From an uncultured Lachnospiraceae bacterium (GTDB lineage: Bacteria > Bacillota_A > Clostridia > Lachnospirales > Lachnospiraceae), in NCBI GenBank assembly GCA_949957035.1, contig CATLIP010000174.1, positions 1 through 5,403 of the forward strand: a stretch of 5,403 bases of DNA. Direction: 5' to 3'. Below are positions 99-621 of the stretch, piece after piece. Each line of letters opens with the position of its first letter. Within the stretch, counting starts at the first letter, position 1. Under the pieces are notes generated by a model. That model was not told the origin of the DNA. It saw nothing but the letters and a program-made list of their open reading frames with translations, and made no database searches. The position numbers were made by a program, and so were the translations under genes.

Positions 99-128
99 TT
101 GACTTTGTTTGACAGGCAGTGCTATAAT
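99..128 (+). promoter_or_regulatory. Sigma-A-type promoter between infA and rpmJ
   Basis: TTGACT at 99-104 is a 5/6 match to the -35 consensus. TATAAT at 123-128 is a perfect -10, and the spacer is 18 bases. A TG at 120-121, one base before the -10, adds an extended -10 element. The predicted transcription start is near 134-136. A TTGACA at 109-114 is only 8 bases from the -10 and cannot be its partner. The promoter would let rpmJ and the alpha operon be transcribed independently of the upstream spc genes. Confidence 0.8.
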
Positions 129-134
129 ATATAA

Positions 135-194
135 GCGTGTTTTCGGGCATTTTTATGAGATTTGAAGAAATCCAATGGTTTGCCCGGCAGACGC
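135..194 (+). promoter_or_regulatory. Possible structured 5' leader of the rpmJ transcript
   Basis: Just after the predicted start site, three nested helices can form. GCGT (135-138) pairs with ACGC (191-194), CGGGCA (144-149) pairs with TGCCCG (181-186), and GATTT (159-163) pairs with AAATC (168-172) around a GAAG loop. The outer helix begins at the predicted 5' end of the RNA. There is no U-tract, so this is not a terminator. The fold may stabilise the transcript or bind a regulator, but no role is shown. Short helices like these can arise by chance; only the 6-bp GC-rich helix is notable. Confidence 0.4.
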
Positions 195-224
195 GTGGGT
201 AGATTGTTGGCAGAGCAATGGATG

Positions 225-232
225 AAAGGAGG
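225..232 (+). promoter_or_regulatory. Ribosome binding site of rpmJ (fixes the GTG start)
   Basis: AAAGGAGG is a nearly full match to the anti-Shine-Dalgarno sequence and stands 7 bases before the GTG at 240. It settles the start of rpmJ at this GTG rather than at an in-frame TTG at 162, which has no such site. Confidence 0.85.
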
Positions 233-239
233 ATTTGAC

Positions 240-353
240 GTGAAGGTTAGATCATCAGTAAAACCAATTTGCGAAAAATGCAAAGTAATTAAAAGAAAAG
301 GAAGCGTTCGCATCATCTGCGAAAACCCAAAGCATAAGCAGCGTCAGGGATAG
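240..353 (+). CDS. rpmJ: 50S ribosomal protein L36 (bL36), zinc-binding type
   Basis: This encodes the smallest large-subunit protein, which binds 23S rRNA. The product is 37 residues, the standard length, beginning [19 protein letters not shown] and ending KHKQRQG. Cys11, Cys14, Cys27 and His32 form the CCCH zinc-ribbon set of the zinc-containing form; the zinc-free paralogue lacks these. The start is GTG, supported by a strong ribosome binding site 7 bases upstream and by the exact family length. It follows infA, as in most Firmicutes, and is the first gene after the promoter at 99-128. Its last codons and stop (TAG, 351-353) lie within an 8-bp stem (332-360), so the end of the gene also forms the start of the structured leader of rpsM. 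Confidence 0.97.
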
Positions 354-360
354 CTTATGC
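332..360 (+). other. Perfect 8-bp stem spanning the rpmJ stop codon
   Basis: GCATAAGC (332-339) is the exact reverse complement of GCTTATGC (353-360), leaving a 13-base loop that contains most of the rpmJ stop codon. The 5' arm is coding (His-Lys-Gln region of L36) and the 3' arm starts at the last base of the stop codon. No T-run follows. A ribosome finishing rpmJ would melt the stem, which could couple rpmJ translation to folding of the leader. Confidence 0.6.
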
Positions 361-416
361 ATCAAATCAGGCGGCTGATAGTACTGACACGCCAGGGGGC
401 GTGTAGACTATTTGAT
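361..416 (+). other. Compact RNA three-way junction
   Basis: ATCAAA (361-366) pairs with TTTGAT (411-416). TCAG (367-370) pairs with CTGA (375-378) around a GCGG loop. TAGT (379-382) pairs with ACTA (407-410), and across a small ACTG/AG internal loop ACACGCC (387-393) pairs with GGCGTGT (398-404) around AGGG. All helices are perfectly complementary, and the junction has no unpaired base between them. It starts at the base right after the preceding stem. This much nested complementarity in 56 bases is unlikely by chance, but no covariation has been checked. Confidence 0.6.
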
Positions 417-455
417 ATACAAGGAGCACCTTTAGCCGGTGAGTATCCTTCGTAT
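417..455 (+). other. Hairpin with one-base bulge in the rpsM leader
   Basis: ATAC (417-420) pairs with GTAT (452-455), then AAGGA (421-425) with TCCTT (446-450), leaving C451 bulged. After an internal loop, CACC (427-430) pairs with GGTG (438-441) around a 7-base loop. The AAGGAG at 421-426 resembles a Shine-Dalgarno sequence but lies inside the stem and has no suitable start codon downstream, so it is better read as structure. Confidence 0.5.
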
Positions 456-465
456 ATTGCTTCTA

Positions 466-536
466 ATGCCGGCCCGTCATTACCGAATGAACCAACGATT
501 CGGTGGCCGGAAAGGGCATGGATACCGAAACGTGCC
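466..536 (+). other. Leader domain with competing pairings and a possible pseudoknot
   Basis: CCGGCC (469-474) pairs with GGCCGG (505-510) and ACCGAAT (482-488) with ATTCGGT (498-504), giving a 13-bp hairpin broken by a 7-base bulge. A second hairpin joins GGCATG (515-520) to CGTGCC (531-536) with one G-U pair. Its 10-base loop repeats TACCGAA (523-529), identical to 481-487, so TTCGGT (499-504) can pair with either copy. ATGCC (466-470) can also pair with GGCAT (515-519). The RNA could therefore switch between a local hairpin and a loop-based pseudoknot or alternative helix. Confidence 0.5.
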
Positions 537-546
537 TGGACAAAAA

Positions 547-573
547 AGGGAGAACCTTAATAGTCCCTATTAA
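547..573 (+). other. Two mutually exclusive small hairpins before rpsM
   Basis: AGGGA (547-551) can pair with TCCCT (564-568). Alternatively TTAATAG (557-563) can pair with CTATTAA (567-573) around a TCC loop. The two share bases 557-568 and cannot both form. Neither is followed by a T-run, so neither is a terminator. They are AT-rich and weak. Confidence 0.3.
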
Positions 574-621
574 AGACAGTATGTAAACAGTAAATATTTT
601 AGAAAAATGGAGGAAATTCAC

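Follow-up and report, generated by a model that had tools for sequence, protein, structure and literature searches.

The window analysed here is a 5,403-nt stretch of DNA from an uncultured Lachnospiraceae bacterium. Its genes, which from their protein sequences we take to be the end of infA, rpmJ, rpsM, rpsK, rpsD, rpoA and rplQ, lie in that order. Judged by the S4 protein, the closest relative is Dorea phocaeensis (96% identity). The region between rpmJ and rpsM is framed by the following features:

99–128, + strand: promoter-like site made of TTGACT and TATAAT separated by 18 nt, TG preceding TATAAT; 11 of 12 matches
240–353, + strand: rpmJ (L36), starting with GTG; the 5′ strand of stem P1 is made up of its final codons
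622–990, + strand: rpsM (S13), ATG at 622–624; then rpsK, rpsD (S4), rpoA and rplQ

Since rpmJ ends at 353 and rpsM begins at 622, the spacer between them measures 268 nt, and it is indeed the longest gap within the operon, as the first-pass annotation of this DNA had stated. Of 80 fetched loci, 71 allowed both genes to be located, and with the window added these gave 72 spacers. Their median length is 315.5 nt (range 14–799 nt), and short spacers of up to 32 nt are rare (3 of 72). In the long spacers of loci L005 (792 nt) and L009 (799 nt), two similar stretches of ~115 nt can be recognized by eye, arranged head to tail before rpsM.

The layout of the promoter-like site is the same in all eight relatives compared by eye, and the transcript carrying the leader described below is likely to begin at this site. 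The 106-nt rpmJ 5′ UTR downstream of it folds with z = −2.36, and a start resembling GCGYGTTTYCGGGCATTT recurs in several of these relatives; this region (window 99–239) is possibly another leader. The coding strand of positions 1–700 has no terminator-like site, the sole candidate lying on the other strand (323–307). An intrinsic terminator within the spacer was therefore rejected, and the same observation argues for control of translation.

The S4-Clostridia leader and the domain upstream of it

From the sequence alone, the spacer had been proposed to encode a densely paired, possibly undescribed ribosomal-protein leader ending at position 573. A scan with the Rfam covariance models showed that positions 510–574 match RF03140, the S4-Clostridia leader. 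The ribosomal-protein leader was thus read correctly and its end placed right to one base, but "undescribed" does not hold for this 3′ part; it does hold for 332–509, which match nothing in Rfam and for which we found no description in the literature available to us. RF03140 is the only Rfam match above cut-off in the window. It covers all 55 model positions and passes narrowly, with 37.8 bits versus a gathering score of 37.5. At the gathering threshold, RF03140 also matches 5 of 17 related loci scanned. In one of the loci (L014, 7049–7148) there is, in addition, a glycine riboswitch (RF00504, 47.7 bits) unrelated to the leader.

In the part of the original description available to us (Eckert and Weinberg 2020, PMC7247131), the S4 leader of Clostridia is listed upstream of rpsM-rpsK-rpsD-rpoA-rplQ, and the window has this same gene order. 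In the same text the molecule carries a GAAA at its 5′ end, and S4 binding and lowered expression by the leader are presented as its authors' prediction (PMC7247131). Because the 3′ end of the leader is the Rfam S4-Clostridia leader, S4 is by analogy the best candidate for its ligand.

The upstream part is different. A search of 325–515 against all families of Rfam 15 gave no match up to E = 10. No description of the elements listed below as P1, junction and P6, or of the antisense arm discussed further on, was found in the available parts of a literature that included PMC7247131, PMC11109978 and PMC10931766, with subscription papers and supplements outside its scope. The dense pairing itself was borne out: window 325–580 folds at −83.4 kcal/mol (z = −2.89), and only 1 of 200 shuffles was as good. 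The structural elements are as follows:

332–360, + strand: P1, 332–339 (end of the rpmJ coding sequence) with 353–360
369–462, + strand: three-way junction core, closed by helix Pa 369–373/458–462, AGGCG/UGCUU
377–412, + strand: Pb 377–382/407–412, bearing hairpin 387–392/399–404
415–457, + strand: Pc 415–420/452–457, extended by 421–425/446–450 and 427–430/438–441
469–510, + strand: P6 469–474/505–510, with inner hairpin 482–488/498–504; leads into the Rfam part
510–574, + strand: RF03140 S4-Clostridia leader (Rfam match), P7 514–520/531–537 and P8 538–541/563–566

The junction is evident at the level of sequence, as AGGCGGCTGAYRG followed by GTATATYGCTT, in the same order, is common to 17 of the 72 spacers, the window's included. 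RNAalifold applied to two MAFFT alignments returned a three-way junction with Pa AGGC/GCUU, Pb and Pc AUAUAC/GUAUAU. In the MAFFT alignment of 17 sequences, which is not structure-fitted, 98.6% of cells pair and 16 cells are changed on both sides, where shuffles give 4.4 ± 1.9; further pair types are no more numerous than in shuffles, 244 of 500 of which reach their number. We also built a covariance model of the junction alone from 17 training sequences (R1). Its 68 matches reduced to 65 distinct leaders, on which the helix tests below were run. When 64 distinct sequences were aligned to the model, 97.5% of cells were paired, 17 of 21 pairs showed changes on both sides and the covariation score was 0.297, versus 0.113 ± 0.007 in shuffled and at most 0.026 in slid alignments, figures that lean towards the model since the alignment was fitted to it.

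In the tree tests, which kept 64 of the 65 leaders, one Pb pair (columns 21/183) is formed in all 64 and underwent at least 11 changes of type on the rpsM tree. For P6, tested in 60 of 65 leaders, 93.7% of positions pair over 29 distinct strand pairs, versus 69.9 ± 2.9% when permuted (0 of 5000 as good), although the method of locating the strands nearly fixes the first two pairs. The sequence UAAUACC near P6 presumably resembles the 530 region of 16S rRNA, which raises the idea of rRNA mimicry; we make no such claim, and a search for a 16S gene in the genome of one relative (G001) found none.

The helices that had been proposed from the sequence alone fared differently under these tests. The stem 332–339/353–360 stands, with a mean pairing probability of 0.97, and the hairpin placed at 417–455 is present, around 415–457. 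Covariation spoke for Pb, its hairpin, Pc and P6, and against ATCAAAT/ATTTGAT (361–367/411–417), the helix supposed to close the junction. The latter, located in 50 of 65 leaders with 47 distinct strand pairs, is not conserved (own −0.30 versus permuted −0.09 ± 0.14 kcal/mol, 189 of 3000 permutations as good) and was rejected. The conserved closing helix is Pa, AGGCG/UGCUU at 369–373/458–462. Pa is almost invariant and covariation says little about it; its pairing probability in single-sequence folding of the window's leader (330–575) is 0.04. Support for predicted Pa thus comes from conservation and geometry rather than covariation.

A structured RNA is indeed present, and it extends beyond its catalogued part. 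On the comparative evidence, 332–509 is part of the same RNA as the RF03140 part at 510–574, and the best explanation for these sequences is one composite regulatory RNA of ~240 nt encoded in the rpmJ–rpsM spacer.

Predicted pairing of the Pc arm with the rpsM start

Two further features concern the start of rpsM:

434–453, + strand: Pc-arm segment antisense to the start codon and ribosome-binding site of rpsM (607–627)
607–627, + strand: rpsM translation initiation region, GGAGG at 609–613 and ATG at 622–624; the antisense target

The duplex between them has an energy of −23.6 kcal/mol and covers GGAGG and two bases of AUG. In the window's leader alone (330–575), the comparative structure lies within 2.2 kcal/mol of the optimum and Pc has a probability of 0.99; with the rpsM start added (to 651), this probability falls to 0.00. 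The "alternative pairings" of the first-pass annotation are therefore real, the Pc arm being predicted to pair either with itself or with the rpsM start.

It could be argued that this complementarity is a by-product, as folding programs favour long-range pairing that never forms in a translated mRNA, and in the cell ribosomes load on rpsM. We examined 55 of the 65 leaders, 45 of which form Pc on their own. Addition of the leader's own rpsM start opened Pc in 27 of these 45; the 18 leaders that did not flip are compatible with a by-product, but shuffled starts (mean of six for each leader) opened Pc in none of the 45. In a start-swap test on 39 leaders, chosen for an rpsM start not beyond 450 nt and a formed Pc, the own rpsM start flipped 25 and the window's rpsM start 20. 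The rpsM starts of three short-spacer loci flipped 10, 4 and 4 of the 39. The window's other gene starts flipped between one and seven (rpsK 1, rpsD 5, rplQ 2, rpmJ 7), which again speaks against a by-product. In 34 of 64 leaders the junction region contains the commonest pairing partner of the Shine–Dalgarno sequence, which in 27 of these 34 is more closed than open. By calculation, then, the two predicted states of the Pc arm are shown to be mutually exclusive and specific to the rpsM start.

Duplex energies were computed for 59 arms, 57 of them distinct. Own arms give lower energies than shuffled arms in the UCCU group (19 arms, −29.1 versus −15.1 kcal/mol), in the GTAAGG group (15 arms, −34.1 versus −23.0) and among the other arms (25 arms, −19.6 versus −15.1). 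When the starts were permuted instead, own starts averaged −26.08 versus −23.84 ± 0.30 over all 57, with 0 of 2000 permutations as low. Few or no permutations were as low in the UCCU group (3 of 2000) and among the other arms (0 of 2000), but in the GTAAGG group own starts were no better than permuted ones (993 of 2000). In the GTAAGG group the motif GTAAGGATACACC is opposite rpsM codons near 6–11, so that different arms share one target. Moreover, Dorea-type leaders have in common the loop letters AGCC, opposite GGCU of rpsM. Pc itself needs none of them, an observation at odds with a by-product, and the loop of the antisense arm could seed pairing with the rpsM start.

The whole-leader test, covering 65 of the 72 spacers (leaders of 100–520 nt), speaks for a by-product. 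Antisense z-scores below −2 were obtained for 5 of 13 R1-type, 0 of 13 weak-R1 and 1 of 39 other leaders, but control starts also fell below −2 (rplQ in 2 of 13 and 6 of 39, rpsD in 4 of 39). For the leader of the window itself the score was −1.9 with rpsM and −2.5 with rplQ. Tested in this way, the antisense signal is weak and does not extend beyond the Dorea/Mediterraneibacter clade. Taking these results together, we judge that a by-product has perhaps one chance in four.

The reading we prefer, and consider probable, is a composite rpmJ–rpsM RNA in which the Pc arm either folds on itself or masks rpsM, with excess S4 holding the masked state. By comparison of relatives, its 5′ part consists of P1, rooted in the last rpmJ codons, the junction Pa/Pb/Pc and P6; P7/P8, the known S4-Clostridia part, would serve as the S4-binding site. 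In the Dorea/Mediterraneibacter clade, Pc folded on itself would leave the rpsM ribosome-binding site free (on). With Pc opened, 434–453 would pair with 607–627 and mask the Shine–Dalgarno sequence and AUG of rpsM (off). Excess S4 would hold the RNA masked, lowering translation of rpsM and of the coupled downstream genes, including rpsD. P7 and P8 are predicted to form in both states (mean probability 0.90 and 0.93 for P7, 0.79 and 0.84 for P8, over 47 leaders), so that the calculations provide no tie between S4 and the masked state. In the window, P8 rises from 0.45 to 0.99 with the masked state; such coupling was not upheld over the 47 leaders, of which five showed a rise of more than 0.2 and one a fall. 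We put at slightly under an even chance the more detailed proposal that the junction arm acts as a cis-antisense element against the rpsM start, comprising its Shine–Dalgarno sequence, AUG and first codons, in a switch set by S4 and possibly by rpmJ translation, with arms that vary among subclades and share the same target.

Linkage of the two parts, P1 and coding potential

A search of R1 against 81 sources (E up to 1) recovered its 17 training sequences plus 14 others, all but one of which lie within the rpmJ–rpsM spacer. We then turned to the 397 genomes of one family, that of G001, the genome of related locus L001. The genome-wide counts are lower bounds, because stricter filters lose weak matches: R1 gave 44 matches in 43 genomes, at least two of which (G001 and G003) had also supplied training sequences; a broader junction model (R2, 56 sequences) gave 65 matches in 64 of the 397 genomes and matches in 2 of 391 at the class level, both already in the family search; and RF03140 was found in 91 of 397 genomes at E up to 0.001, 66 of them above cut-off. 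According to gene positions, all 44 R1 matches sit between rpmJ and rpsM. Genome G215 has two junction copies, on contigs C4 and C24, both between rpmJ and rpsM, which is likely to reflect a mixed assembly.

Could the spacer hold two independent leaders in tandem, RF03140 answering to S4 and the 5′ junction to another product of the operon (S13, S11 or L36) or to nothing? Each part does occur without the other: 43 of the 91 RF03140 genomes have no R2 match, and 16 genomes have R2 only. The former figure also means that some S4-Clostridia leaders can do without the 5′ domain. On the other hand, 48 of the 65 R2 matches have RF03140 8–122 nt downstream on the same strand. P6, which covaries strongly, joins the two parts, and its 3′ strand ends in GAAAGG, which opens the Rfam motif. 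Finally, of the 16 R2-only genomes 13 were fetched, and all 13 carry GGAAAGG (or GGGAAAGG) after P6; the Rfam model may simply miss RF03140 there. Two independent leaders are, in our opinion, unlikely.

Variants of the arrangement were also seen. Loci L017 and L044 seem to be without the junction, yet they keep UGUAUUGCCUAAUACCGAGAGGCAA ahead of the GGAAAGG hairpin, which hints at the smallest S4 element. In Blautia (L040, L050, L052 and L076) an extra hairpin, CACCCCATTTCACCTT...AAGTGGTRTAC, lies between P8 and rpsM, near the rpsM start; that of L040 begins slightly differently, and none was seen in the window.

P1 joins the final codons of rpmJ to sequence ahead of the junction. Over the 65 leaders its own pairing averages −7.95 kcal/mol, versus −6.43 ± 0.21 when permuted (0 of 5000) and −4.22 ± 0.25 with a shuffled arm. 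The third base of the His codon agrees with its partner in 18 C-G, 16 T-A and 1 T-G cases and disagrees in 1 C-A, 3 C-T and 1 C-C. However, on the tree, where 24 of 64 leaders are without a recognisable arm, about two changes account for the alternation of CAC/GUG with CAU/AUG, which weakens P1 covariation as strong proof. Formation of P1 is for this reason likely but not strongly proven. By eye, inserts of the form CACTTAGTGA...GAACTTAGTGAG are seen in the P1 loop of L003, L005, L009, L015, L018 and L021; they were rejected as a dispersed repeat there, one exact 14-mer being found once in five genomes.

In another reading, regulation would lie in the Pc/rpsM switch itself, driven not by S4 but by ribosomes that finish rpmJ and open P1, or by folding kinetics. 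The extension of P1 into rpmJ, with the energies given above, is in line with this, and so is the presence of Pc in the leader alone and its absence from the full leader. Yet the two tree changes in P1 count against it, and P1 has similar probabilities in both states of the window (0.97 and 1.00). We regard a switch of this kind as improbable, much as we do tandem leaders. That the spacer is occupied by a gene for a small protein, or by a mobile insert unrelated to the operon, is highly implausible: there are open frames of 67 and 44 codons in the window, a run of 65–67 codons in L007 and other frames of up to 67 codons, but the window's 67-codon frame shrinks to 16–55 codons in 14 of 15 relatives (65 in L007), sequence changes track the helices and the 44 genome matches are confined to the rpmJ–rpsM spacer, in agreement with the initial impression that it held no convincing gene.

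Relation to known S4 leaders and significance

S4 autoregulation is a classic case, and the E. coli alpha operon pseudoknot is repressed by S4 through entrapment. The composite RNA proposed here would resemble that pseudoknot (RF00140, Alpha_RBS) in that S4, the presumed regulator, acts on the rpsM operon and the RNA governs rpsM initiation. Nevertheless, it does not belong to RF00140, which scores 15.1 bits at 556–654 against a cut-off of 38. Moreover, the S4 site of the E. coli alpha operon comprises the rpsM ribosome-binding site, according to the accessible part of PMC10931766, whereas the presumed S4 site here (510–574) stops 34 nt before the Shine–Dalgarno sequence, and masking would fall to the antisense arm.

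The B. subtilis rpsD leader is likewise a case of translational repression by S4 in Firmicutes, as described in the available text of PMC10931766; for the RNA studied here, S4 and repression are predictions. According to that text, the B. subtilis leader stands before rpsD, a gene separate from the rest of the operon (PMC10931766). That leader is recognised by a GUAA motif in its structural setting upstream of rpsD, whereas our RNA is upstream of rpsM. The known Firmicutes S4 motif is said to be absent from Clostridia in the portion of PMC7247131 at hand.

The closest relation is to RF03140 itself. As far as the accessible description goes (PMC7247131), operon and class are the same, and the conserved GAAA and two hairpins are shared. 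The catalogued model has 55 positions, whereas the RNA here runs ~180 nt further upstream, where it also has the antisense arm, P1, the junction and P6, the last with a 3′ strand that adjoins the Rfam motif. The S4-Clostridia leader is thus known, while the junction, P6, P1 and the antisense arm appear, from the Rfam and literature searches above, to be new.

In the text available to us, the Clostridia S4 leader is catalogued as two small hairpins, without a stated link to the gene start (PMC7247131). The whole RNA would offer a structure testable for S4 binding and a concrete switch, Pc versus the rpsM start, and would explain the great length of the spacer in many relatives. It also illustrates that about three-quarters of a conserved RNA can lie outside a curated Rfam model. 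In this gut bacterium, the leader may act as an on/off switch for the synthesis of ribosomal proteins.
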